Shown here: one piece after another, positions 2,598 to 13,534 of the stretch | How positions within the stretch are numbered: the stretch's first letter is position 1 | Layout: the number at the start of each line of letters is the position of its first letter | NCBI GenBank assembly: GCA_946011705.1 | Contig: CAMGCA010000012.1 | Location: 1 to 17,269 of the forward strand | DNA length: 17,269 nucleotides | Source: an uncultured Clostridia bacterium | Lineage (GTDB): Bacteria > Bacillota > Clostridia > Oscillospirales > Oscillospiraceae | Direction: 5' to 3' | Position numbers and translations under genes: made by a program | Notes under the pieces: model-generated | What the model was told of the DNA's origin: nothing | The model's database searches: none | The model's input: only the letters and a program-made list of their open reading frames with translations

Positions 2598-2701
2598 CTA
2601 TCATCTCTTTTATTACAGATATTTTTCGGTTCGCGCCCCTGCTTCCTATTCTAAAACATAATGTTCATAATATTTTGTGCATATCGGTTCGTCAGCAAAT
2701 C

Positions 2702-3005
2702 GACAAATTGGAATTTGGCAAGTTGCACCGCACCACGACAAAGGTTGTCATTGCGAACCAGTGACCGATGTCACTGGTGTGGCAATCCGTTCTCCTTTTG
2801 GCATTTTCGTCATCCAGACGCGTAAGGGGATGCGGATTGCCACGCCAGTGTGCGCACTGGCTCGCAATGACATACGAGTATTTTAGTGCACCAAATTCCA
2901 ATTTTCGTAACAGCTTATGGTCGAGGGGCCCAAAGGATGTAGGATGACCGCCCAGCGTCCGTGACGCATTGTCAGCGGCGACTCGCCGCCAAATTCCAAT
3001 TTATC
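2702..3005. repeat. Composite inverted-repeat element, copy A
   Basis: A 304-bp noncoding unit with 17-bp termini. The left end is GACAAATTGGAATTTGG (2702-2718). The right end at 2989-3005 is its inverted copy with one mismatch. A third, inverted, partial copy of the terminus lies internally at 2891-2904. It divides the element into a REPIN-like cruciform core (2746-2872) and a ~95-bp flank module containing GAGGGGCCCAAAGGATGT (2923-2940). The same parts recur at 13230-13534. I see no credible coding sequence or clear target-site duplication. It resembles a MITE-like non-autonomous element. Confidence 0.85.
2746..2872. repeat. REPIN-like cruciform core of copy A
   Basis: The outer stem is TGTCATTGCGA (2746-2756) with TCGCAATGACA (2862-2872). 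The inner stem is GTGGCAATCCG (2779-2789) with CGGATTGCCAC (2833-2843). Between them sit two side hairpins: CCAGTGAC-cgat-GTCACTGG (2758-2777) and GCCAGTG-TGCG-CACTGGC (2844-2861). The loop enclosed by the inner stem is 43 nt. Each half resembles a REP sequence (stem plus foot), and the two halves are inverted, which is the layout of REPINs mobilised by RAYT transposases. No such transposase is in the window. Confidence 0.8.
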
Positions 3006-3074
3006 AAGCGGCTGAGTCAAACCGATAAGCACATAATTTTTTTGAATTTCCCTATATCTTTTTTGAGGATTCTG

Positions 3075-3083
3075 TGATATACT
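3075..3083 (+). promoter_or_regulatory. Extended -10 promoter of the C39/SleB-like gene
   Basis: TGATATACT contains the extended -10 pattern TGnTATACT (-10 box 3078-3083). I find no good -35 at 16-18 bp, which fits an extended -10 promoter. It lies 40 bp before the start codon, in an AT-rich stretch just after repeat copy A. Confidence 0.6.
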
Positions 3084-3122
3084 GGGCTAAACCATTTCAT
3101 TCGGAAAGGAGAGATTTCCCTG

Positions 3123-4304
3123 ATGCGCTCTGTCCAGCTGCTTTGTGGGCTGCTCACCGCCCTGGCTCTGATGATAACCGCCGCAGCGCCTGCCCGCGCC
3201 GCGGATGACGCTTCCGTTCTGGATGAATCCGCCGCCATGGGCGCTTCCTATGACACAGAAACGCTCCCGGAAGAAGTATCCGAACCGGAAGCTCTGATGG
3301 ATACCGTGCCGCCGGAGACACCGGATGAGGAGACTACGCCGGATGAGACGGAGCCTGCCGAAACGGAAGCGCGGGCCGACCGCTTTGACTGGACGGAGGT
3401 CTATACCCACGAATTTCCCCTGTACTCCCAGCTGGACTATCCCAATAAGCGCTACGGCAGCGGTACCGTCGCTACCAGCGGCTGCGGCATTACATCTCTG
3501 GCAATGGTAGCTTCCTACCTGACCGGACACGCCTACTATCCGGACGAGCTGGCCGACTACTTCGGCGGTTACGGTGAGAACAACGTCCAGCGCTTTGAAT
3601 ACGGCGCCGAGCAGCTGAAGCTCCCCATCCACAAGGCGGACACCATCCGCGACGTTTTCGCCGCCCTGAAAAATGGGGATGTGGCCGTTCTTCTCATGGA
3701 CCATATGTCGATTTTTACGCAGACCCAGCACTTCATTGTGCTCACCGGCATCAACGAGGAAACCGGAAAGATCATGGTTTACGACTCCTACCCGCCCAAC
3801 TACGAAAAGTGGGATCTGACGCGGGGCTTTGTGGAAGGATTTGAAGAAAAGGATCTGATGCTTGGCTACAGCGGCGGCTGGATTTTCAGCGTTCGGGGTA
3901 TGCCGGAGGTTCCTTTCATTTACACCGAGGAAAAGCCCGAGGCGGATCCCCGATACGGGGTTGAGCTGACCTGGGAGGAGCAGCAGCTGCTGGCAAAGCT
4001 TATCTGGCTGGAAGCCCGGGGCGAATCCCCGGAGGGCCAGCAGGCCGTTGCCGAGGTGGCCCTCAACCGGCTGGTGTCCGGCAAATTCGGCAGCACTCTG
4101 CAGGAGGTCATTTATGGCGAAGGTCAGTTCCGAACCACCCCCTTCCTGGGCGAGGCAGAAGCTTGGCAAGCCCAGTACGAGGCCATCGACGCCGCTTTGT
4201 CCGGCCCCAATATTCTGCCCATGGATGTGATGCATTTCGCAACTTACCCGGAAAATGACCAGGTTTGGGGGAAAATCGGCGGACATATCTTCTGCTACGG
4301 TTAA
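3123..4304 (+). CDS. Secreted C39-like peptidase / SleB-CwlJ-type cell-wall hydrolase, two-domain (393 aa)
   Basis: An AGGAGA site precedes the ATG. A Sec signal peptide spans about residues 1-26, with a likely cut at ARA|AD. An acidic Pro/Thr/Glu-rich linker follows (about 45-85). Residues ~93-258 form a C39-like papain-fold domain (Peptidase_C39_2 type) with candidate catalytic Cys121 in SGCGITSLAMV, His203 in QTQHFIVLTG and Asp221 in VYDSYPP. Residues ~281-393 match the Hydrolase_2 (SleB/CwlJ) fold, with the conserved Glu297 in WLEARGES and a C-terminal HFATYPENDQVWGKIGGHIF block. SleB-type domains cleave peptidoglycan glycan strands; the C39-like domain probably cleaves a peptide. The protein is probably exported and acts in the wall or at the septum or spore. 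The catalytic assignments are inferred from motif positions. It is a single-gene unit with its own promoter and terminators. Confidence 0.85.
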   Translation: MRSVQLLCGLLTALALMITAAAPARAADDASVLDESAAMGASYDTETLPEEVSEPEALMDTVPPETPDEETTPDETEPAETEARADRFDWTEVYTHEFPLYSQLDYPNKRYGSGTVATSGCGITSLAMVASYLTGHAYYPDELADYFGGYGENNVQRFEYGAEQLKLPIHKADTIRDVFAALKNGDVAVLLMDHMSIFTQTQHFIVLTGINEETGKIMVYDSYPPNYEKWDLTRGFVEGFEEKDLMLGYSGGWIFSVRGMPEVPFIYTEEKPEADPRYGVELTWEEQQLLAKLIWLEARGESPEGQQAVAEVALNRLVSGKFGSTLQEVIYGEGQFRTTPFLGEAEAWQAQYEAIDAALSGPNILPMDVMHFATYPENDQVWGKIGGHIFCYG

Positions 4305-4309
4305 GTCAA

Positions 4310-4337
4310 AACCCCCGGCTAAGCCGGGGGTTGCTTT
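4310..4337 (+). terminator. First terminator after the cell-wall hydrolase gene
   Basis: A 10-bp GC stem, AACCCCCGGC/GCCGGGGGTT, with a 3-nt loop starts 5 nt after the stop codon and is followed by GCTTTT. The T-tract is modest but the stem is very stable. Confidence 0.8.
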
Positions 4338-4358
4338 TGGTGCGACCAACTGCGAACG

Positions 4359-4391
4359 GCCCGCCGGATTCTTCCGGCGGGCTGTTTGGTT
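4359..4391 (+). terminator. Second, tandem terminator-like hairpin
   Basis: The perfect 10-bp stem GCCCGCCGGA (4359-4368) / TCCGGCGGGC (4373-4382) with loop TTCT is followed by TGTTTGGTTG. It lies about 30 bp after the first hairpin and probably acts as a backup, insulating the downstream gene. Confidence 0.6.
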
Positions 4392-4433
4392 GTCAATGGC
4401 CTTGTCGGTAGCAAAAAATTCACAGTCTTTCCC

Positions 4434-4462
4434 TTTACCCCGGCGGAAAAACGTGGTAAACT
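4434..4462 (+). promoter_or_regulatory. Promoter of the YfhO-type gene
   Basis: TTTACC (4434-4439) and TAAACT (4457-4462) are 17 bp apart and lie 35 bp upstream of the start codon. Confidence 0.65.
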
Positions 4463-4497
4463 AAAAGGCAAACACTGAGTTTTCAGGAGGAACCCCC

Positions 4498-7227
4498 ATG
4501 AGACTTGGAAAACGCGCGCAATGGAATTTTGCCGCTCTGGGCTTTGCCATCCCCTGTCTGGGAATGCTGATGATCATGCTCATCAGCCATTACGCCCCCT
4601 TCGGCAAGTATTCCATGCTGTATTCCGATATGTACCACCAGTATTACCCCTTCTTTGTGGCCTTCCGCAACGCCATCCGCAGCGGAAACGGCCTGCTGTA
4701 TACCTGGAGTGTCGGTATGGGCATGGACTATCTGGGACTCATTGCCTACTATCTGGCGTCGCCTTTGAACCTTGGCAGCGTGCTGCTGCCGGAGAGGTGG
4801 CTGCTGGGCTATTTTTCCCTGCTGGTGCCCATCAAGCTGGGGCTTGCGGGGTTGTTCTTTGCCCTGTTCCTGAAGGACATTTTTCGCAGGAATGATGTTT
4901 CCATTGCCGTGTTCGGTGGGCTCTACGGCCTGTGCGCCTGGGCGCTGGGGTATCAGTGGAACGTCATGTGGCTGGACACCTTCGCATGGCTACCGTTGGT
5001 GGTGCTGGGGGAAGTGAAGCTGCTGCGGGATAATAAGGTGATTCTCTACACGGTGAGCCTGTTTTTCTCTGTATTTACCAACTACTATATCGGGCTGTTT
5101 ACCTGCTTTTTCGTGTTTTTCCTGTTCTTTATCTACGAAATCTGCCGCTGGGGCGGCTGGAAGAAATTCTTCTGCGACCTTCTTCGCATCGGCCTGTTTT
5201 CCGCCATCGCCTTAGGGCTGACGGCGATTCTCACCGTGCCCGCCCTGTTTGCCCTCGGCACCACCCAGTCCAGCGTCAACAAATTCCCCACCTCCTTCCG
5301 GCTGAACATCGCCAAGGAGAATACCATTATGGGCCTGCTGGACGCCATGCGGCAGGTGGCGGGCAACATGGGCGGCTCCATCGAACCCAGCTTCAAGGAG
5401 GGCCTGCCCAACCTCTACTGCGGCATCCTCAGCGTGTTCCTTATGTTCCTGTATCTGCTTGCCCGGCGGGTACGGCTGCGGGACAAGGTCTGCGCTGTGT
5501 TTCTGCTGGTGTTCTTTAACCTCAGCTTTATCGTGCGGCAGCTGGACTATATCTGGCACGGCTTCCACTTTACCAACATGATTCCCTACCGGTTCAGCTT
5601 CCTGTACAGCTTCGTGGTGCTGTACATGGCCTACCGGGCCTGGACGCTGCGCAAAGACTTTTCCACGAAACAGATTCTGGCGGCGGCTGTGTGTGCGGCA
5701 GGGGTGCTGGCCTGCTCCAACCAACTGACGGAAACCATTGAGCTGACTCTGTTTGGCAGAGATTGGGATTTTCCCCTGTATTTTGTCTATAATCTGGTGT
5801 TTCTGGTGCTGTACCTGCTGGCTATGCTGTCCGGCAATGTTACCGAACCCATCCCGGAGGAGGCGGAACGGGAGGAGGCCGCCCGAATCCGTCTGGAAAA
5901 TGTCCGCCAGCGGCGGCGGTCCCGGGGACTGGTGCTGGCGGTTGGCTGGGTGGAGCTGATCGCGTATGTGATCTGCTTCGGCCTGTATTTCCCTGGCACC
6001 GGAGTTTCCGACTACCCCCGGGGCACAGACAAAACGGCCTCCGTCATCCGCTACATGAAGGAGCGGGAGGAAGATACCCTCTTCTACCGGGCGGAGACCA
6101 CCCACTCCCAGACCCTGAATGACGGCGCTCTCAACGGCTACAACGGGGTGTCCGCCTTTACCAGCTCCGCCAATGTCAAGACCACCCTGTTCATGCAGGC
6201 GCTGGGCTACGGGGCGAAAAACACCTACAACCGCTACCTCTTTGAGGAAAGCTCTCCGGTTGCCAACCTGTTCCTGAACCTGAAATATATGATCGAGCGG
6301 GACGGGAAGGATCGGGAAAGCACCTACTTTACGGAAATCAACCGCTTCGGCAATACAGCCCTGCTGGAAAACACAGCCTATCTGCCCCTGGGCTTTCTGA
6401 CGGAGTCGGCCCTGGGGGAGCTGGCGTTTACCACCTCCGGCAACGCATTCTCCTTCCAGAACGACCTGTTCTCCGCCGCCACGGGAGTGGATGGAGATGT
6501 CTGGCATAAGCTGGAAGGGGAGAGCCTGTCCATCCTTCCCGGAGATGTGCAGATTTCCGAGGAAAATGACACCGGCTACTGCCGCTACGAGACCACCGAT
6601 AAGTCCGAGGTGATCTACAGCTTCACCGCCGACCGGGAGGGCTTCGCGTGCATCCATCTGGATCTGCCCAAGCGCAATGACTTCTACGTCAGCGTCAACG
6701 GGCTGGAGCTGTACCAGGAGAAAATCAGTCTGCCCCAGATGCTGGCGGTCAGCGACGTACAGGCCGGGGATGTCATCGATGTGCGTATCATCTGCCTCGC
6801 CGGCGAGAGCGGCACCATGACCGTGGGGGCGGCGATTCTGAACCCGGAGCGGTTCCGGGAAGGGTATGAAGTGCTGGACGCCTCCGCCCTGAAGCTGACA
6901 AAGTTCAAATCCACCCGGGTGGAGGGCACCATTGAATGCGACCGGGATGGCCTTCTGTACACCTCCATCCCCCAGAACGGCAACTGGCAGGCCACCGTGG
7001 ACGGACATCCCGTTGAGACGGCTGTGGTGGGAGAATGTATGCTGGCCCTGCCCCTGAGCGCGGGCAGCCACAGCATCCGGCTGACCTACCACAACGCTGC
7101 CTTCTCGCTGGGCTGGAAGCTTTCCCTGGCCTGCGCGGCCGTCTTCGCTGTGCTGATCATGACCTGCTATCGCGGTGAGCTCCGGCAAAGGGCGGGAAAG
7201 TACGCCAGGGGAAAGGACGAGAAATAG
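4498..7227 (+). CDS. YfhO-family membrane protein, probable GT-C-type glycosyltransferase (909 aa)
   Basis: AGGAGG lies 7 nt before the ATG. About a dozen membrane segments occupy residues 10-500. A long extracytoplasmic region (about 505-870) follows, with one last membrane helix (about 873-893) and a basic tail. The first external loop has YSDMYHQYYPF (42-52, with Asp44) followed by WSVGMGMDYLG, a hallmark of the bacterial YfhO family (PF09586). Family members have GT-C topology and, where studied, glycosylate lipoteichoic or wall teichoic acids using lipid-linked sugars. Asp44 is the likely catalytic acid by position. The gene has its own promoter and ends in TAG, 67 bp before murC, which also has its own promoter. 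The length fits the family; the sugar and acceptor are unknown. Confidence 0.88.
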   Translation: MRLGKRAQWNFAALGFAIPCLGMLMIMLISHYAPFGKYSMLYSDMYHQYYPFFVAFRNAIRSGNGLLYTWSVGMGMDYLGLIAYYLASPLNLGSVLLPERWLLGYFSLLVPIKLGLAGLFFALFLKDIFRRNDVSIAVFGGLYGLCAWALGYQWNVMWLDTFAWLPLVVLGEVKLLRDNKVILYTVSLFFSVFTNYYIGLFTCFFVFFLFFIYEICRWGGWKKFFCDLLRIGLFSAIALGLTAILTVPALFALGTTQSSVNKFPTSFRLNIAKENTIMGLLDAMRQVAGNMGGSIEPSFKEGLPNLYCGILSVFLMFLYLLARRVRLRDKVCAVFLLVFFNLSFIVRQLDYIWHGFHFTNMIPYRFSFLYSFVVLYMAYRAWTLRKDFSTKQILAAAVCAAGVLACSNQLTETIELTLFGRDWDFPLYFVYNLVFLVLYLLAMLSGNVTEPIPEEAEREEAARIRLENVRQRRRSRGLVLAVGWVELIAYVICFGLYFPGTGVSDYPRGTDKTASVIRYMKEREEDTLFYRAETTHSQTLNDGALNGYNGVSAFTSSANVKTTLFMQALGYGAKNTYNRYLFEESSPVANLFLNLKYMIERDGKDRESTYFTEINRFGNTALLENTAYLPLGFLTESALGELAFTTSGNAFSFQNDLFSAATGVDGDVWHKLEGESLSILPGDVQISEENDTGYCRYETTDKSEVIYSFTADREGFACIHLDLPKRNDFYVSVNGLELYQEKISLPQMLAVSDVQAGDVIDVRIICLAGESGTMTVGAAILNPERFREGYEVLDASALKLTKFKSTRVEGTIECDRDGLLYTSIPQNGNWQATVDGHPVETAVVGECMLALPLSAGSHSIRLTYHNAAFSLGWKLSLACAAVFAVLIMTCYRGELRQRAGKYARGKDEK

Positions 7228-7230
7228 TGG

Positions 7231-7259
7231 TTGTAAAATCCCTTTATTTATAGTATAAT
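7231..7259 (+). promoter_or_regulatory. Promoter of murC
   Basis: TTGTAA (7231-7236) and a perfect TATAAT (7254-7259) have 17-bp spacing in the short YfhO-murC gap. Transcription would start near 7266, so murC need not depend on readthrough from yfhO. Confidence 0.85.
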
Positions 7260-7294
7260 GCTATGAGCTTAATAACCAATCGGGGGATCAGTCA

Positions 7295-8659
7295 ATGATA
7301 TTTCAGAATAAGAAAATCTCCAAATATCTCACGCCCGGCTGTCATGTGCACCTGGTCGGCATCGGCGGCGTTTCCATGCGCCCCCTGGGACTGGTGCTCA
7401 AGGGCATGGGCATGGAGGTAACCGGCTCCGATATGAGCGCCTCCGACGGAACCAGAGAGCTGGAGGATAAGGGCATTCCCGTGGCCATCGGACACCATGC
7501 GGAGAATATTGAAGGCGCGGCCTGCATTATCCGCACCGCCGCCGCCCACAACGACAACCCGGAGATCGCCGCCGCCCGGGCCGCCGGGATTCCCGTCTTC
7601 GAGCGGGCCCAGGCCTGGGGCGAGATTATGAAGTCCTACAAGAACGCGGTCTGCGTTTCCGGCACCCATGGCAAAACCACCACCACCTCCATGCTGACCC
7701 ACATTCTCATGGAGGCCAATCTGGATCCCACCGTCATGATCGGTGGCTACCTGCCGCTGCTCCACGCCAGCCACCGGGTGGGCCACGGCGACACCATTCT
7801 GCTGGAAAGCTGCGAATACTGCGACTCCTTCCTGAATTTCTTCCCCACGCTGGCGCTGGTGCTGAACGTGGAGGAAGACCACCTGGACTACTTCAAGGAT
7901 CTGGCGGATATCCAGAAATCCTTCCACAAGTTTGCCGCCATGGCCACCTTCGGTGTGGTGGCCAACGGCGATGATCCCCACACCGTCAAGGCCATGGAGG
8001 GCATCGACTATGTCTCCTTTGGATTGGGGGAGGGCAACCGCATTCATGCAGCCAATATGTGCCCGGACTGGCGGCACTTTGACGTGGTGTGCGACGGGGA
8101 ATACTACTGCCATCTGGACATGGGCGTGCTGGGAAAGCACAACGCCATGAACGCGCTGGCCGCCGCTGCCGCCGCCTGGATGATGGGCATTCCCGGCGAG
8201 GCAGTGTCTCACGGCCTCCAGTCCTTCCACGGCGCGGGTCGGCGGATGGAGTTTAAGGGAACCTACAACGGCGCGGATGTGTATGACGACTACGCCCATC
8301 ACCCCGATGAGGTGGCGGCAACCATCGCCGCAGTCCGGAACGCCATGCCGGACAAACGTCTGGTACTGGCCTTCCAGCCCCACACCTACTCCCGCACCAG
8401 CGCTCTGTTTGACGATTTTGTTCGGGAGCTGGGCAGGGCGGATGTGCTGGTGCTGGCGGAAATTTACGCCGCCCGGGAGCGGAACACCATCGGTATTTCC
8501 TCCGCCGACGTGGCGGAAAAAATCCCCGGCGCGGTATTCTGCGAGACCCTGCCGGAGGTGACGGATTACCTGCGGGAGAACGTCCGGGAGGGCGACGTGG
8601 TGATCACCATGGGCGCGGGCGATATCTTCCGGGCGGGGGAGGCCCTGCTGGGGAAGTAA
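7295..8659 (+). CDS. murC: UDP-N-acetylmuramate--L-alanine ligase (454 aa)
   Basis: This cytosolic Mur ligase adds L-Ala to UDP-MurNAc using ATP, the first peptide step of peptidoglycan precursor synthesis. The protein has the N-terminal Rossmann motif GIGGVS (residues 22-27), the P-loop GTHGKTTTT (123-131), ESCEYCDSFL (171-180), the NVEEDHLDYF block (191-200) and YDDYAHHPDEV in the C-terminal domain, which is diagnostic for MurC. The ESCEYCDSF segment replaces the EADESD-type sequence of the E. coli enzyme; I believe this is a recurrent variant in Clostridia. The length is normal. The GGGGGA site before the ATG is only moderate. No T-tract terminator follows; REPIN-like copy C lies directly downstream and its hairpins may end or stabilise the transcript. 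Confidence 0.96.
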   Translation: MIFQNKKISKYLTPGCHVHLVGIGGVSMRPLGLVLKGMGMEVTGSDMSASDGTRELEDKGIPVAIGHHAENIEGAACIIRTAAAHNDNPEIAAARAAGIPVFERAQAWGEIMKSYKNAVCVSGTHGKTTTTSMLTHILMEANLDPTVMIGGYLPLLHASHRVGHGDTILLESCEYCDSFLNFFPTLALVLNVEEDHLDYFKDLADIQKSFHKFAAMATFGVVANGDDPHTVKAMEGIDYVSFGLGEGNRIHAANMCPDWRHFDVVCDGEYYCHLDMGVLGKHNAMNALAAAAAAWMMGIPGEAVSHGLQSFHGAGRRMEFKGTYNGADVYDDYAHHPDEVAATIAAVRNAMPDKRLVLAFQPHTYSRTSALFDDFVRELGRADVLVLAEIYAARERNTIGISSADVAEKIPGAVFCETLPEVTDYLRENVREGDVVITMGAGDIFRAGEALLGK

Positions 8660-8681
8660 AGAAGAACTTATCATATTATCA

Positions 8682-8801
8682 TGTCATTGCGAGGAGGGCG
8701 AAGCCCGACGTGGCAATCCGTTCCCCTTTGCACGTTCCAATATCGTACCCGGCACAAAAAGGAGTACGGATTGCCACGTCGCTTCGCTCCTCGCAATGAC
8801 A
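8682..8801. repeat. REPIN-like cruciform repeat, copy C
   Basis: It has the same outer stem TGTCATTGCGA (8682-8692) / TCGCAATGACA (8791-8801) and the same inner stem GTGGCAATCCG (8710-8720) / CGGATTGCCAC (8767-8777) as the cores at 2746-2872 and 13373-13499. The side arms and the central loop differ: arm 1 is GGGC-gaa-GCCC (8696-8706) and arm 2 is a short GCTTCGC turn. It starts 23 bp after the murC stop codon and lacks the 17-bp GACAAATTGG termini of copies A and B. Confidence 0.8.
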
Positions 8802-8915
8802 TTCTTTGTAATTGGCGAAAGAACAACAATCCTAAGCAGTCCCCTTCGAGGGGCCCTAAGGATGTGCGATAATTGCCCGGTGTCTGTAACGTATTGGCTG
8901 GCCGCCCCGCGGCCC
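8802..8915. repeat. Flank module of copy C
   Basis: The block TCGAGGGGCCCTAAGGATGT (8846-8865), with a following stretch that resembles GTAACGCATTG, matches the flank module of composite copy A (2921-2940 onward) and of copy B on the other strand (13296-13315). Here CCCC-TTCGA-GGGG (8841-8853) can form a small hairpin. The order, core then flank, is the same as in copy A. No coding content is apparent. Confidence 0.6.
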
Positions 8916-8916
8916 G

Positions 8917-8945
8917 CAAAAAAATGTGCCGGTTGCCCGGCACAT
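8917..8945 (-). terminator. Terminator of the 130-aa hypothetical gene
   Basis: Read on the minus strand, ATGTGCCGG-gcaa-CCGGCACAT is followed by a run of seven T. It starts about 6 nt after the TAA stop codon of the minus-strand gene. Confidence 0.92.
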
Positions 8946-8950
8946 TCCTC

Positions 8951-9343
8951 TTATTCCTCCAACACCAGATGGTCTACGCCGGAGGATTCAAATTCCGACA
9001 TATATTTGTCCATGCGCTCCACGATCTCGTCGTAGTTTTCGCCGTTGATCTCGGGATAATCCATATCCCGCCGGGAAAGCTCCTCGGCCAGGATTTCGTA
9101 GAATACGTTGTCCTCGTAATAGGCGATGGCCTCGTGGATGCCGCCCTCGGTGTAGGCCCGGGAGGGGACGATGGTTCCATTCCAAGGCTCGGACAGGGCA
9201 GGGGACAGAGCGAAAATCTTGCTTTCCAGGTCATCGTAGTCCTGGAAGCGATCATCGCCCCGGGTGGAATTGAGCACCCAGTTGCCGATGTAGACCAAAT
9301 CCAGCAGACGGCGGAACTCTTTCGGAGTCAATTCGATGTTCAA
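8951..9343 (-). CDS. Small acidic hypothetical protein (130 aa)
   Basis: I do not recognise a named family. The protein has no signal peptide or membrane segment, is strongly acidic, and is rich in Tyr, Asp and Glu. The N-terminal TPKEFRRLLDLVYIGNWVLN segment looks helical. A central YYEDNVFYEILAEELSRRD stretch and a C-terminal YDEIVERMDKYMSEFESS stretch also look helical. Good codon structure and a strong terminator just after the stop support a real gene. The start is the TTG at 9341-9343; no in-frame ATG exists near it, and AAGGCGGGA 6-14 nt upstream is a mediocre ribosome-binding site. It is transcribed divergently from ddl across a 104-bp shared upstream region. Function unknown; probably cytosolic. 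Confidence 0.75.
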   Translation of the reverse strand: MNIELTPKEFRRLLDLVYIGNWVLNSTRGDDRFQDYDDLESKIFALSPALSEPWNGTIVPSRAYTEGGIHEAIAYYEDNVFYEILAEELSRRDMDYPEINGENYDEIVERMDKYMSEFESSGVDHLVLEE

Positions 9344-9388
9344 GGGCGTCCCGCCTTCATGTTGATTGGCTCCAGGATAGCCCCGATT

Positions 9389-9444
9389 TTCTAAAATTCC
9401 AGAGGAAAATTCTAAAATATAGTTTTATCCGATTATGAGGTGAA
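9389..9444. promoter_or_regulatory. Divergent control region between the hypothetical gene and ddl
   Basis: A direct repeat TTCTAAAAT occurs at 9389-9397 and 9410-9418, 21 bp apart (two helical turns). On the minus strand, TTCACC (9439-9444) and TATATT (9416-9421) with 17-bp spacing could drive the hypothetical gene. No clear -35/-10 pair stands out for ddl, whose ribosome-binding site GAGGTGAA overlaps the putative minus -35. The assignments are tentative. Confidence 0.4.
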
Positions 9445-9447
9445 GTT

Positions 9448-10515
9448 ATGGGAAAATTAACGGTTTGCATTCTGTTCGGCGGCATCAGTCCGGAGCACGA
9501 GGTTTCTCTGCGCTCGGCGGAATCCGTTCTGAACCATATTGACAAGGAAAAATACCATGTTCTGCCCGTGGGCATCACCAGAGATGGAAAGTGGTATTAC
9601 TTTGGCGGCACGGATTACGCCATGCTGCCCGCCAAAACCTGGGTCACACACCCGGACAGCTGTCCGGCAGTTATTTCTCCCGTCCGGGGGCAGGGCCTGC
9701 TGCGCTTTTCCGGCGATACCGTGACAGCCACCCCCATTGACGTGGTGTTCCCGGTGCTCCACGGCGAAAACGGCGAGGACGGGGCCATGCAGGGTCTGCT
9801 GCAAATGGCGGGGATTCCCTACGTCGGCCCCCATGTGGCTGCCTCCGCCGTGGCCATGGACAAGACCTTGACCAAGCTGGTCATCGACAAGGAGGGCATC
9901 CCCCAGGCCGCCTGGGAGCTGGTGCGCGCTTGCGAACTGGAAGACAGGATGGACGCCATTGTTGCCGCGCTGGAGGGCAGATTCACCTACCCCATGTTCG
10001 TCAAGCCCGCGGGCACCGGCTCTTCCGTGGGTGTTTCCAAGGCGGGAAACCGGGAGCAGCTGAAAGCCGCCCTCACCGCCGCCGGAAGGTACGACAGCAA
10101 GATTCTGGTGGAGGAGTTCATCAAGGGCAAGGAGATCGAGGTTGCCGTTCTGGGAAACCGGGAGCCTGTGGCCTCGGTCTGCGGCGAAATCGACTCCGGC
10201 GCGGAGTTCTACGACTACGATGCCAAGTACGTCACCGATACCTCCACGGCATATATCCCCGCCCGGATTTGCGAGGATTTGCAGGCCCGGATTCGGGACG
10301 CGGCGGTGCGGGTATTCAAGGCTGTGGGCTGTCAGGGCCTGAGCCGGGTGGATTTCTTCGCCACCGAGGATGGAAAACTGGTGTTCAACGAAATCAACAC
10401 CATTCCCGGCTTTACCTCCATCTCCATGTACCCCAAGCTGTTCACGGCCAGCGGAATCTCCTATTCCCGGCTCATTGACCGGCTGCTGGAGCTGGCGCTG
10501 GAGGCCGGAAAATGA
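9448..10515 (+). CDS. ddl: D-alanine--D-alanine ligase (355 aa)
   Basis: A cytosolic ATP-grasp enzyme that joins two D-Ala for the peptidoglycan stem peptide. Visible motifs are EHEVS (16-20), HGENGEDG (105-112), the ATP-binding KPAGTGSSVGV (186-196), the omega-loop FYDYDAKY (254-261) and VFNEINTIPGFT (312-323), which has the metal-binding Glu and Asn. The Tyr-containing omega loop is the D-Ala-D-Ala type, not the D-lactate type of VanA-like ligases, so no intrinsic vancomycin resistance is suggested. GAGGTGAAG precedes the ATG. The stop codon overlaps the next start (ATGA), so ddl and the DUF1934 gene are translationally coupled. The length is typical. Confidence 0.96.
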   Translation: MGKLTVCILFGGISPEHEVSLRSAESVLNHIDKEKYHVLPVGITRDGKWYYFGGTDYAMLPAKTWVTHPDSCPAVISPVRGQGLLRFSGDTVTATPIDVVFPVLHGENGEDGAMQGLLQMAGIPYVGPHVAASAVAMDKTLTKLVIDKEGIPQAAWELVRACELEDRMDAIVAALEGRFTYPMFVKPAGTGSSVGVSKAGNREQLKAALTAAGRYDSKILVEEFIKGKEIEVAVLGNREPVASVCGEIDSGAEFYDYDAKYVTDTSTAYIPARICEDLQARIRDAAVRVFKAVGCQGLSRVDFFATEDGKLVFNEINTIPGFTSISMYPKLFTASGISYSRLIDRLLELALEAGK

Positions 10516-10934
10516 AGCAGGCGGTGATTCTGTCCCTGTGCTCCGTCCAGCGGTATGAGGACCAGGAGGCGGAGAAGCTGGAGCTGGTGACGGAAGGCAC
10601 CATGTAGCTTCGGAACGGGGGCTGGGATATCAGCTATGCCGAAACGGAGCTGACGGGGCTGGAAGGGGTGACCACAACCTTCCGGGTGGAAAAGGATCAG
10701 CTGACCCTGAGAAGAACGGGCCAGCTGAACTCGGAAATGGTGTTCCGTCTGGGCTATGCCCACGATTCCCTGTACCAGATGCCCTTCGGCGCGTTTGCGA
10801 TGCGGGTGGAGACCCTTTCACTATTCTATGATATTGTGCCCGATGGAGGTTCCATCGACTTAAGCTACCGGGTGACCATCGAGAATACCCAGGCGGGGCT
10901 GGTTGAGTATCATATGGATATTCGGGCGAAATAA
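10512..10934 (+). pseudogene. DUF1934 (YwiB-like) beta-barrel protein gene interrupted by an in-frame TAG
   Basis: From the ATG overlapping the ddl stop codon, the frame reads MKQAVILSLCSVQRYEDQEA..., then ELVTEGTM, then TAG at 10605-10607. It continues unbroken as LRNGGWDISYAETELTGLEG...TTFRVEKDQLTLRRTGQLNSEMVF to TAA at 10932-10934. Both sides match the DUF1934 pattern (V/L-TEGT, SYEETELTGLEG, TLKRTG, SQMVF), and the total of 140 codons equals the usual family length. The stop falls where relatives tend to carry Tyr or another aromatic residue, so one change of TAT/TAC to TAG explains it. A downstream GTG (10668) could start a fragment, but without a proper ribosome-binding site. YwiB-like proteins are small calycin-like barrels of unclear function. 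TAG is used as a normal stop by the yfhO gene here, so general recoding is unlikely. Confidence 0.85.
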
Positions 10935-10936
10935 AC

Positions 10937-10966
10937 AAGGGGCCGACGGAAACGTCGGCCCTTTAC
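10937..10966 (+). terminator. Terminator of the ddl-DUF1934 unit, possibly bidirectional
   Basis: The perfect 9-bp stem GGGCCGACG (10940-10948) / CGTCGGCCC (10953-10961) has a GAAA tetraloop and is followed by TTTACC. Read on the minus strand it is followed by CTTGTTTATTT, so it may also stop the YugP-type gene. Confidence 0.85.
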
Positions 10967-10983
10967 CTGTATTGCAGCGTAGG

Positions 10984-11011
10984 GTAGGGCGGGAGCAAGC
11001 CCCCGCCCTAC
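10984..11011. repeat. GC-rich hairpin repeat between convergent genes
   Basis: The perfect 10-bp inverted repeat GTAGGGCGGG (10984-10993) / CCCGCCCTAC (11002-11011) has an 8-nt loop. No T-tract adjoins it, so it is not a canonical terminator. Its form (GTAGGGCGGG...GCTTGCTCCCGCC on the minus strand) looks like a dispersed intergenic repeat, but only one copy is in this window. Confidence 0.6.
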
Positions 11012-11021
11012 GGTTGGATAA

Positions 11022-11744
11022 TCAATCGTCTCTGCGCCGACCGCCGAAGATGGCCAGCAGCCGCACAAGTTGAGCCAGGGCCACGGCGGTGGCGGCAACG
11101 TAGGTCAGGGCCGCGGCCCGGAGGGTCTTCCGTGCGCCGTTCAGCTCTTCATCGGTCAATAGCTGCCCATCCTCGATGGCGGTCAGGGCACGGCGGCTGG
11201 CGTTGAACTCAACAGGCAGCGTCACCAGCTGGAACACCAGCGATAGGCCGAAGCATGCAATGCCCAGGTAAATCAGGAAATCGGACATGGAGCCGAAGGC
11301 GGACAGCACGATTCCCAGCAGAATCAGGGGCATGGCCAGCCGGGAGCCGAAATTCGTGACGGGGATAATGGCGGCCCGGAGCTTAATGGGGGCATAGTCT
11401 TGCGCATACTGAACCGCATGGCCCGCCTCGTGACAGGCAACACCGATGGCGGCGGTGGAGGTGCTGCCGTAGACCTCATCCGACAGGCGGATGACGTTGG
11501 CACGGGGGTCGTAGTGGTCGGTGAGCTTGCCGCTGACCCGCTCAATGCGCACGTTCCGGACACCGTGGGCGTACAGTACCCTTTGGGCAGCCTCCGCGCC
11601 GGTGAGGTGCCGCAGGGAGAACTGGGAGGAATATTTCTGAAAGGTGGAATTGACATTGGCGCTGGCCCACAGGGACAGAAGAATACAGGGCAGCACCAGA
11701 ACGATATACGTCCAGTCAAAGCCGTAATAATACATGGGATACAT
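11022..11744 (-). CDS. YugP-type zinc metallopeptidase, membrane protein (240 aa)
   Basis: Matches the neutral zinc metallopeptidase family of B. subtilis YugP (Zn_peptidase_2). It has an N-terminal membrane helix (about 11-29) and the zinc-binding HEAGH at residues 105-109, preceded by STAAIGVAC. It also has two further hydrophobic segments (about 136-150 and 155-176) and the conserved LPVEFNASRRAL block (175-187), where Glu179 is the likely third metal ligand. It is a membrane-bound protease with the active site probably on the cytosolic face; its substrate is not known. GGAGGT lies 6 nt before the ATG. It is monocistronic on the minus strand with a ~100-nt leader that contains a repeat-derived hairpin. 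The C-terminus is basic and acidic (GGRRRDD). Confidence 0.88.
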   Translation of the reverse strand: MYPMYYYGFDWTYIVLVLPCILLSLWASANVNSTFQKYSSQFSLRHLTGAEAAQRVLYAHGVRNVRIERVSGKLTDHYDPRANVIRLSDEVYGSTSTAAIGVACHEAGHAVQYAQDYAPIKLRAAIIPVTNFGSRLAMPLILLGIVLSAFGSMSDFLIYLGIACFGLSLVFQLVTLPVEFNASRRALTAIEDGQLLTDEELNGARKTLRAAALTYVAATAVALAQLVRLLAIFGGRRRDD

Positions 11745-11808
11745 AATGAAACCTCCAAATCGTACCTTTGCCAGCTATAGAATGCAAACTTGCGGTGCCA
11801 GCGGTACG

Positions 11809-11836
11809 GACAAATTGGAATTTGGCTTCGCCAAAT
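11809..11836. repeat. Solo terminal repeat/hairpin related to the composite elements
   Basis: GACAAATTGGAATTTGG at 11809-11825 is identical to the 17-bp termini of the 305-bp elements. It is followed at once by CTTCGCCAAAT, so ATTTGGC-ttc-GCCAAAT (11820-11836) forms a tight hairpin. It looks like an element whose interior has been lost. It lies in the transcribed leader of the YugP-type gene. Confidence 0.7.
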
Positions 11837-11854
11837 AACCGATCTTTCCACCAT

Positions 11855-11883
11855 ATTATATCCCGCCGGGGGCAAAATGGCAA
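11855..11883 (-). promoter_or_regulatory. Promoter of the YugP-type gene
   Basis: On the minus strand, TTGCCA (11878-11883) and a perfect TATAAT (11855-11860) have 17-bp spacing. The transcription start would be near 11848, giving a leader of about 100 nt. Confidence 0.82.
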
Positions 11884-11969
11884 GGCTGTGTCCGTTTCTC
11901 AAATGTAAACTTTTTCCCGCAGTCTGCCGGAAATATTCACATTTTGTTCATACTGCGAAGATAGGGAAC

Positions 11970-11978
11970 TGGTATACT
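11970..11978 (+). promoter_or_regulatory. Extended -10 promoter of the AI-2E-family gene
   Basis: TGGTATACT has the extended -10 form TGnTATACT (-10 box 11973-11978). No good -35 is found at normal spacing (TTCATA at 11947 is 20 bp away). It lies 25 bp upstream of the start codon. Confidence 0.6.
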
Positions 11979-12003
11979 GTAAAACAGAGAAGGAGTGAGG
12001 CCT

Positions 12004-13227
12004 TTGAAGGATCCGGATAAACGGCGATTTCTGTATCTGACGCTGTCCCTGTTTGGGGGTATCAGCTTAAGCATTGTGGTGTTTTTCGTGGTGTACCGGT
12101 TTCAGGGCATCGGCGACATTGTGCGCCGACTGGAGGAGATCCTGGCGCCGTTTATTTACGGCGGCATCGTGGCCTATCTGCTGCGGCCCATGTGCAATTT
12201 CTTTGAGCAGACCCTGGATACCACCCTGCCGGGGAAGGCAAAACGGGCAGCATCGCCGCTGGCGGTGGGACTGAGCCTGCTGACCGGCATTCTGCTGGTG
12301 TACGCCCTGATCATCATGATCGCCCCTCAGCTCTATGAGAGTGTCCGCAGCCTGTGGAATTCCATTCCCGACAAGGTGAACCGGTTCATTCAGTGGGCCA
12401 CGGAGAAATTCGGCGAGGAGGAAATGGTGGCCCGGATTCTGACGCTGCTGAATACCAACAGCGAATCCATTTACGAGCAGCTGGAAACCTGGGGAAAGAA
12501 CCTGCTCAGCCCCTACCTCACGGGCCTTACCAGCATCGTCAGCGGCGTGGGCAGCAGCCTGATCAAAATTCTCAAATTCCTGTACAACCTGCTCATCGGC
12601 CTGATCGTGGCCTGCTATCTGCTGGCCAGTCGGAAGCGGTTCGCCCGGCAGAGCGTCATGGTGGTGCGCAGCCTGCTGAAGCCCCGGTGGGCAGACCTTT
12701 TGTTGGGCGAGGTGGCTTTTGTAGACCGGATGTTCGGCGGCTTCATTGACGGCAAGCTGCTGGATTCCGCCATCATCGGCGTACTGTGTTATCTGGGGTG
12801 CCTACTGTTCCGGTTTCCCAACGCACTGCTGGTGTCCACCTTTGTGGGCATCACCAACGTGATTCCCTTCTTCGGCCCCTTCATCGGCGCGGTGCCCGCC
12901 ACGCTGCTGATTATGATTGAAAATCCCATCAAGGGCCTGTGGTTTATCGTGTTTGTGCTGGCATTGCAGCAGCTGGACGGCAATGTCATCGGCCCTAAGA
13001 TTTTGGGTGACCGGACAGGGCTATCCAGCTTTTGGGTGCTGTTCGCCATCGTGCTGTGCGGCGGTCTGTGGGGCGTTGCGGGCATGGTGATCTGCGTGCC
13101 CATGTTCGCGGTGATCTACGACATCGTGAAGAAGCTGGTGCGCCGGGGCCTGACCAATAAGGGCCAGACCCAGCTGTGGGAGCAGTACCATGCGGATTAC
13201 CCGGAGGAAACGGGAAAGGAAGGTTAA
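12004..13227 (+). CDS. AI-2E/PerM-family transporter-like membrane protein (407 aa)
   Basis: Belongs to the AI-2E transporter-like superfamily (PF01594; YdbI/PerM/TqsA relatives). About eight membrane segments are visible. There is a soluble amphipathic stretch around residues 110-180, the family block IPFFGPFIGAVPA (about 287-299), and GPKILGDRTGLSSFW (about 330-345) followed by two terminal helices. Members export small molecules or, in some bacteria, act as ion antiporters; the name does not prove AI-2 transport. AAGGAG (11990-11995) runs into a GTG at 11995 but sits 8 nt before the TTG at 12004, so TTG is the better start. The gene is monocistronic; composite repeat copy B lies between its stop codon and the terminator. 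Confidence 0.88.
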   Translation: MKDPDKRRFLYLTLSLFGGISLSIVVFFVVYRFQGIGDIVRRLEEILAPFIYGGIVAYLLRPMCNFFEQTLDTTLPGKAKRAASPLAVGLSLLTGILLVYALIIMIAPQLYESVRSLWNSIPDKVNRFIQWATEKFGEEEMVARILTLLNTNSESIYEQLETWGKNLLSPYLTGLTSIVSGVGSSLIKILKFLYNLLIGLIVACYLLASRKRFARQSVMVVRSLLKPRWADLLLGEVAFVDRMFGGFIDGKLLDSAIIGVLCYLGCLLFRFPNALLVSTFVGITNVIPFFGPFIGAVPATLLIMIENPIKGLWFIVFVLALQQLDGNVIGPKILGDRTGLSSFWVLFAIVLCGGLWGVAGMVICVPMFAVIYDIVKKLVRRGLTNKGQTQLWEQYHADYPEETGKEG

Positions 13228-13229
13228 GC

Positions 13230-13534
13230 GACAAATTGGAATTTGGCGGGGATGCCCCCGCGGGCAATGCGTTACGAACTCTGGTTCATCCTCGTACATC
13301 CTTTGGGCCCCTCGACCATAAGCCGTCACGAAAATTAGAATTTGGCGAGTTGTACCGCACCACGACAAAGGTTGTCATTGCGAACCAGTGACCGATGTCA
13401 CTGGTGTGGCAATCCGTTCTCCTTTTGGCATTTTCGTCATCCAGACGCGTAAGGGGATGCGGATTGCCACGCCAGTGTGCGCACTGGCTCGCAATGACAT
13501 ACGGGTATTTTAGTGCACCAAATTCCAATTTGTC
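13230..13534. repeat. Composite inverted-repeat element, copy B
   Basis: A 305-bp noncoding element with perfect 17-bp terminal inverted repeats: GACAAATTGGAATTTGG at 13230-13246 and its complement at 13518-13534. A degenerate internal copy (AAAATTAGAATTTGG) sits near 13331-13345. The flank module, with the complement of TCGAGGGGCCCAAAGGATGT at 13296-13315, is on the left and reversed relative to copy A. The REPIN-like core (13373-13499) has the same orientation as in copy A. It begins 3 bp after the AI-2E-family stop codon and so is part of that transcript's 3' untranslated region. Confidence 0.87.
13373..13499. repeat. REPIN-like cruciform core of copy B
   Basis: Aligned without gaps to the core at 2746-2872 (offset 10627), it keeps all stems and side hairpins, and I see no difference within the core itself. 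The neighbouring ~40 bp on each side carry only a few changes (for example GAGTTGTACC against AAGTTGCACC, and TACGGG against TACGAG). This is much closer than the flank modules are to each other. Confidence 0.8.

Follow-up and report, generated by a model that had tools for sequence, protein, structure and literature searches.

Two composite repeats in an uncultured Clostridia genome, probable members of a modular family of IS1595-type mini-transposons

Layout of repeats A and B

We analysed a 17,269-bp stretch of DNA (the window) from an uncultured Clostridia bacterium (assembly GCA_946011705.1, contig CAMGCA010000012.1), which carries two composite repeats, A (2702–3005) and B (13230–13534). 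Both contain a common 200-bp core in the same orientation, with a flank module (F) that lies on opposite sides of the core and in opposite orientation. An earlier note, made from the sequence alone, had proposed this layout, and our alignments confirmed it. The cores (2705–2904 in A, 13332–13531 in B) were 98% identical over 200 bp on the same strand, differing at 4 of 200 positions, so that they are near-identical and not, as the note had it, identical. When aligned on the core alone (172 bp), A and B showed 98.3% identity forward versus 56.7% reversed; the flank modules showed 83.6% identity over 116 bp (16% different) once that of B had been reverse-complemented. Both repeats are non-coding, measure 358 bp (A) and 305 bp (B), and contain no transposase gene. 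Taking the results below together, A and B probably belong to a family of non-autonomous IS1595-type mini-transposons in which exchangeable palindromic modules are joined at a 17-bp palindrome, T, and F sits at opposite core ends. The arms of B are not recognisable, and we infer its membership from the sequence of its modules.

The genome that holds the window, G000, is a metagenome-assembled genome (MAG) of 2.26 Mb, 73% complete and fragmented into 372 contigs, several of which end inside these repeats. We compared it with the genomes of its genus (136, G000 included). G000 contained 82 BLAST matches to A; in the search of this genome with A, the best 40 of 156 first-look candidates were scored. 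Seven core copies reached at least 94% identity. A search of named genomes with the arm–T sequence returned eight stretches, all from uncultured Clostridia bacterium or Bacillota bacterium, and a phage collection searched with A gave zero matches.

T has the form AAATT-SS-AATTT and is nearly its own reverse complement; whether two copies count as inverted or direct is therefore decided by the central pair of bases together with the outer ones. The window holds six matches to T at three or fewer mismatches against 0.06 expected, which excludes chance. The internal joint of B (13330–13345, GAAAATTAGAATTTGG) is an additional, more diverged copy that falls outside those six. Across G000 we counted 51 matches at three or fewer mismatches (one for the reversed control), and genome G060 had 161 at two or fewer mismatches in 2.9 Mb. 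The two T copies beside the core have inverted centres (GG versus CC).

Table 1. Positions of elements A and B and their parts in the window
Feature	Position	Strand	Remark
Left target-site duplication of A, TAATATTT	2668-2675	.	Partner 3034-3041, 7/8 identical
Element A, full extent; best read as an IS1595-type MITE, core plus flank module	2676-3033	+	
Left outer arm of A, terminal inverted repeat, 20 nt	2677-2696	+	Compared with arm consensus
T of A, left; AAATT core starts 8 nt inside the arm	2702-2718	+	
Core module of A, CATTGCGAnCCAGTG...GCAATCCG palindromes	2719-2890	+	
T' of A, internal core/flank joint	2891-2907	-	3 mismatches
Flank module F of A, GCGGCGAGTCGCCGC-arm subtype	2908-2988	+	With its T equals the C107 copy, 113/113 bp
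T of A, right end	2989-3005	-	1 mismatch
Right outer arm of A, 22 nt	3011-3032	-	
Right target-site duplication of A, TAATTTTT	3034-3041	.	
Element B, T-bounded, no recognisable outer arms	13230-13534	+	
T of B, left end	13230-13246	+	
Flank module F of B, GCGGGGATGCCCCCGC-arm subtype	13247-13329	-	With its T 97.4% to C140, 116 bp
T' of B, internal joint, AAATTAGAATTT variant	13330-13345	+	Common only to C118 among 7 aligned core copies
Core module of B	13346-13517	+	
T of B, right end	13518-13534	-	

Outer arms, target duplications and IS1595 transposases

The earlier note had taken the 17-bp terminus as the end of the elements. B is bounded by T and has no recognisable outer arms; A extends further, to ~2676–3033, so that its ends lie outside T. 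The arm takes the form GTGCWTATCGGTTTNNNTCAGC, followed by 8 nt and T, and the T of A sits within this longer terminal repeat. Outside its two T copies, A has a left arm of 20 bp and a right arm of 22 bp, and the 8-bp sequences beyond them, TAATATTT and TAATTTTT, match at 7 of 8 bases as read by eye. Because the left arm is 2 nt shorter than the consensus, A was left out of the arm pairs counted below, and the frame of its duplication was borrowed from them.

At one or fewer mismatches, the arm pattern occurred in 30 of the 136 genus genomes, that of the window included. The fetched loci yielded 40 distinct inverted arm pairs, 90–415 bp long. In 15 of these pairs, at least 8 of 9 bases outside the arms matched (200 shuffles: mean 0.58, maximum 3). 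The best of 48 frames was an 8-bp duplication, with at least seven matches in 20 of 40 pairs; frames overlapping it scored almost equally, and the out-of-register frames listed scored none. T lay within 30 nt of the arm in 46 of 128 distinct arms, at a spacing of 8 nt in 36, 0 nt in seven, 7 nt in two and 9 nt in one.

In congeneric species, similar arms enclose genes for IS1595-family transposases. The element at locus L183 of genome G027 is 1001 bp long and encodes a 290-aa IS1595 transposase, the protein on which we tested domain assignment (Pfam DDE_Tnp_IS1595 and Zn_ribbon_IS1595; NCBIfam NF033547). Its arms have one mismatch each, and its contig stops a few bases at most from the right arm, where no duplication is readable. 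A protein search placed relatives of this transposase in 15 of 136 genomes. The IS1595 ends fell into two groups, a TGG/AGG type (G027, G032 and others) and a TGC type, the latter being nearest to the arms of the miniature elements (zero mismatches in both arms of G077 L309; one or two in the copies of G019 and G013).

Given these transposase genes with similar arms in congeners, the sequence of A is best read as that of a non-autonomous IS1595-type miniature inverted-repeat transposable element (MITE). A shares terminal inverted repeats with autonomous IS1595 elements (G027 L183 and G077 L309) and has the 8-bp duplication (7/8), neither of which was found for B. Both are small, multicopy and free of a transposase gene, and neither encodes its own transposase, as an IS1595 insertion sequence (IS) would. 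The duplication accords with published statements on this family, in which 8-bp target duplications are given for IS1595 (PMC8101967) and A/T-rich 8-bp repeats for ISApl4 (PMC12561309).

Relatives also provided versions of the two sites. Six congeneric loci (G009, G137, G030, G052, G130 and G146) had flanks matching those of A at 10 to ~120 bp apart, and inspection of these intervals by eye revealed no arm, T, core or F. For B, we examined seven relatives' loci; both flanks were linked in three (G130, G030 and G137), and the other four had the left flank only, at least in G009 because the contig ends. Between the flanks lay 38 bp in G030 and other repeats with an F module in G130. In G137 (C1; L233, 2230–2700), the site held an element bounded by T and arms, in which a 127-aa SnoaL-like open reading frame (ORF) stands where the core would be, a possible gene-carrying member of the family; the Pfam score of this ORF was 21.9, below the curated cut-off of 27.

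Placement of the flank module

Among the seven core copies in G000, F adjoined the GTGCAC core end in three (A, C260 and C89) and the GCACC end in B. C122 carried F on both ends, the right-hand one as a tandem pair, and C6 (L005) had a core bounded by T with no F. In C118, the contig end cuts the copy and leaves the status of F unreadable. Module order therefore varies, and the single fixed order that the earlier note had named as evidence against its reading was not found; its view of modular repeats with the core as a unit by itself was borne out by the copy on C6.

The flank modules of A and B belong to two subtypes, and a near-identical copy of each exists elsewhere: that of A with its T was 100% identical to the C107 copy, and that of B with its T 97.4% identical to C140. 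The core of B has two features of the single-nucleotide polymorphism (SNP) type that are common only to C118, the AAATTAGAATTT joint and GTTGTACC; in C118, the core end corresponding to the F-bearing end of B is terminal, beside an outer arm. The core of A shares two SNPs only with C122. Over all loci there were 66 distinct F hits, of which 19 had a T (two or fewer mismatches) at each side. In 18 of these 19, the T copies were direct repeats of one polarity, and in the exception the central GC could not be assigned. In the composites of F and core read here, the GC-hairpin end of F points outwards.

Given the F subtypes with copies elsewhere, the SNPs common to B and C118, and C122, we read A and B as F joined at opposite core ends; a flip of the core is not needed to explain how they differ. 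In its complete form, an element would consist of an arm (GTGCWTATCGGTTTNNNTCAGC), 8 nt, T, an interior, T, 8 nt and an arm, and an IS1595 transposase with similar arms would presumably move it in trans, leaving an 8-bp A/T-rich duplication. The interior would be a set of exchangeable palindromic modules with T as the joint, and F a polar unit between two directly repeated T copies, attachable at either T of a T-bounded core. Modules might join by recombination or insertion at T. In these terms, A has F at the GTGCAC core end, B a different F subtype at the GCACC end, and C122 has F at both. Alternatively, different F copies may have been lost from a C122-like form; judged by sequence, joining of different F copies to opposite ends of one core, or their loss from such a form, would be an economical account. 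Two narrower ideas were also considered. That an F subtype is bound to one core side was weakened by G130, where an F with the arm type of B sits on the other end. F might itself be an IS1595-type insertion, direct T copies being present and terminal repeats absent.

In G060, whose interiors are unlike those of G000, copies varied in having F to the left or to the right of the core. Global alignment of the cores of L163 (F left) and L164 (F right) gave 79.8% identity in the same orientation versus 64.0% reversed, and L165 versus L164 gave 67.5% versus 53.3%; both pairs align better in the same orientation and hence indicate two F placements. Local alignment of L163 with L164 also returned a long reversed match (78.6% over 313 bp), as such matches arise because the cores themselves are palindromic. 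The alignments are mixed and lean towards two F placements in this genome. Many G060 interiors were built of CGTAGGGAACGGATTTATCCGTTCC palindromes in place of the G000 core.

Several observations weigh against an IS1595-type family with modules joined at T. B has no recognisable outer arms and no target duplication at its flanks, 25 of 40 arm pairs fall below 8 of 9 matching flank bases, and T is missing within 30 nt of 82 of 128 arms. No IS1595 transposase was detected in G000 at E ≤ 0.001, in a MAG that is 73% complete. F lacked T on both sides in 47 of 66 hits, and two hits with T on one side only (L230 and L335) had a T-like sequence of the other polarity with two mismatches; neither F nor the core itself has IS1595-type ends. 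At L216 of G130, F with the GCGGGGATGCCCCCGC arm lies on the GTGC-type core end, so the F subtype is not strictly tied to a core side. At one core position C118 has the base of C122 and differs from B; because of this conflict and the cut at the contig end, the link between B and C118 hangs on two SNPs. In G060, L163 versus L154 showed no preference (54.0 versus 52.0), and L165 versus L154 (48.0 in the same orientation versus 59.2 reversed) indicated one common order.

The earlier note had instead read B as A with its core turned round and its flanks diverged in place. Recombination between T and T', which lie inverted at the two core ends, could turn the core round with breakpoints in T and yield exactly the arrangement of B, and the G130 F with the arm type of B on the other core end would fit such an event. 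We nevertheless regard it as unlikely, given that the F subtypes of A and B differ and each has its near-identical copy elsewhere, that C122 has F on both core ends, and that two SNPs link the core of B to C118, in which the corresponding end is free. The copies on C260 of G000 and C57 of G130 share the left arm and, at 84% over 1.9 kb, the left flank, and their element bodies match each other in reverse (79% over 258 bp). They looked at first like an inversion in place, but we downgraded this case once the right flank of C260 was found to match C102 of G052 (93–94%) and not to be homologous to that of the G130 copy. With flanks from two separate loci, C260 points to a repeat-associated rearrangement or misassembly, not to a clean inversion. 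A phage-type integrase gene (PF00589, 14811–15995), possibly the edge of an integrated element, lies 1.3 kb from B, with no link to B shown; no further recombinase was found among the 11 window proteins scanned, the remaining ORFs of the window being outside that scan.

It is improbable that the core is a mobile cassette that inserts into the T of other elements and duplicates it. Such a cassette would account for the core-only copy on C6, and an IS1595 copy that inserted in T did duplicate T exactly (L305 of G032). A target duplication must be direct, however, and the T copies beside the core are inverted in the centre; moreover, the core ends share no terminal repeat apart from T. The inverted T copies also led us to reject the core as an IS1595-type insertion with T as its target duplication. 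An assembly artefact, in which modules were misjoined inside repeats of a short-read MAG, appears very improbable. Several of the 372 contigs end in these repeats (we take the short-read origin from this fragmentation), and C260 links flanks that lie apart in relatives. Against misjoining, A is enclosed by a matching duplication, the flanks of B are linked in three of seven relatives' loci, the cores of A and B differ at four of 200 positions and so are not one collapsed copy, and both F placements also occur in G060, a separate assembly.

T as an insertion target, known systems and further features

Insertion sites of TGG/AGG-ended IS1595 elements resembled T. From 27 flanks we removed eight with TGC-type ends and three second ends (L303, L304 and L305), leaving 16 sites; in each of the pairs L312/L319 and L311/L320, both members belong to one genome and their flanks are reverse complements, so that each pair probably represents a single insertion read from its two ends, which reduces the set to 14. 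The mean match of these 14 to AAATTNNAATT was 6.8 of 9, with two exact sites (within-site shuffles: mean 3.5, maximum 5.1 in 10,000); in the 16-site version the mean was 7.0 of 9, with shuffles at 3.6 and three exact sites. One exact site, L305, lies inside a T that is 8 nt from a three-mismatch arm; at the other, L312 of G121, no arm adjoining T was seen. These sequences suggest that T draws IS1595 insertions. A more tentative idea, which we hold to be possible and on the doubtful side, is that T matches the preferred target (approximately AAAYTNNARTTT) of an IS1595 group in the same genus, so that the elements would carry a built-in landing site at which modules, IS and perhaps genes gather and shuffle. 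If this is true, insertions would collect at T inside existing elements, where they do no harm, and produce a self-nesting modular scaffold, and the SnoaL-like ORF element at the B site of G137 would represent exchange of an interior at a fixed site.

These results offer a testable account of composite intergenic short repeats in an uncultured gut genus, in which one palindrome would act as subterminal repeat and internal joint and look like an IS target. They also caution that opposite module order in two repeats need not imply DNA inversion.

Among known systems, A and B resemble the IS1595 family and IS-derived MITEs, which have a partner IS with a zinc-ribbon and DDE_Tnp_IS1595 transposase, inverted terminal repeats and 8-bp A/T-rich duplications. 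Unlike IS1595 ISs, they have no transposase gene, and their interior consists of exchangeable palindromic modules. In PMC3049150, BOX elements of Streptococcus pneumoniae are likewise composite short interspersed repeats with combinable modules of varying number, and bacterial interspersed mosaic elements (BIMEs) and repetitive extragenic palindromic (REP) elements, mosaics of palindromic units, are named. Here, unlike in BOX elements, one palindrome, T, is part of the ends and also the internal joint, and F occurs on either core end. To our knowledge, BIMEs and REP elements have neither long arms nor 8-bp duplications. Mobile insertion cassettes (MICs) consist of IS ends around a passenger gene and lack a transposase. 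The G137 copy with the SnoaL-like ORF at the B site resembles them; A and B differ, carrying no gene. MICs are named in PMC4133298, which also describes Tn3-derived miniature elements (TIMEs), similarly non-autonomous and forming mosaic derivatives. TIMEs differ in their Tn3 ends and 5- or 6-bp duplications (PMC4133298). Among the top titles returned by our literature searches, none concerned IS1595 MITEs in Clostridia.

An Rfam scan of the window returned one tRNA only (tRNA-Asp according to ARAGORN). The AI-2E transporter gene (11995–13229) terminates with KEG and a stop codon, two bases before B, and has another end in relatives; insertion of B may have given it its last codons and stop. 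Between this gene and a Zn peptidase gene, positions 11805–11843 hold a solo T (11809–11825, + strand) along with a short hairpin and part of a CCGAT arm; the stretch looks like a deletion remnant. A third, older composite at 8683–8910 has no clear T; a CATTGCGA palindrome block (68% to the core of A, reversed) comes first and then an F module that is 78% identical to that of A over 51 bp. In genome G013, arm-bounded elements of 415 bp without T occurred at three places (L194/L224, L225 and L226) and were nearly identical by eye; two of the three had duplications matching at 8 of 9 bases, and they are perhaps a recently active sister subfamily.

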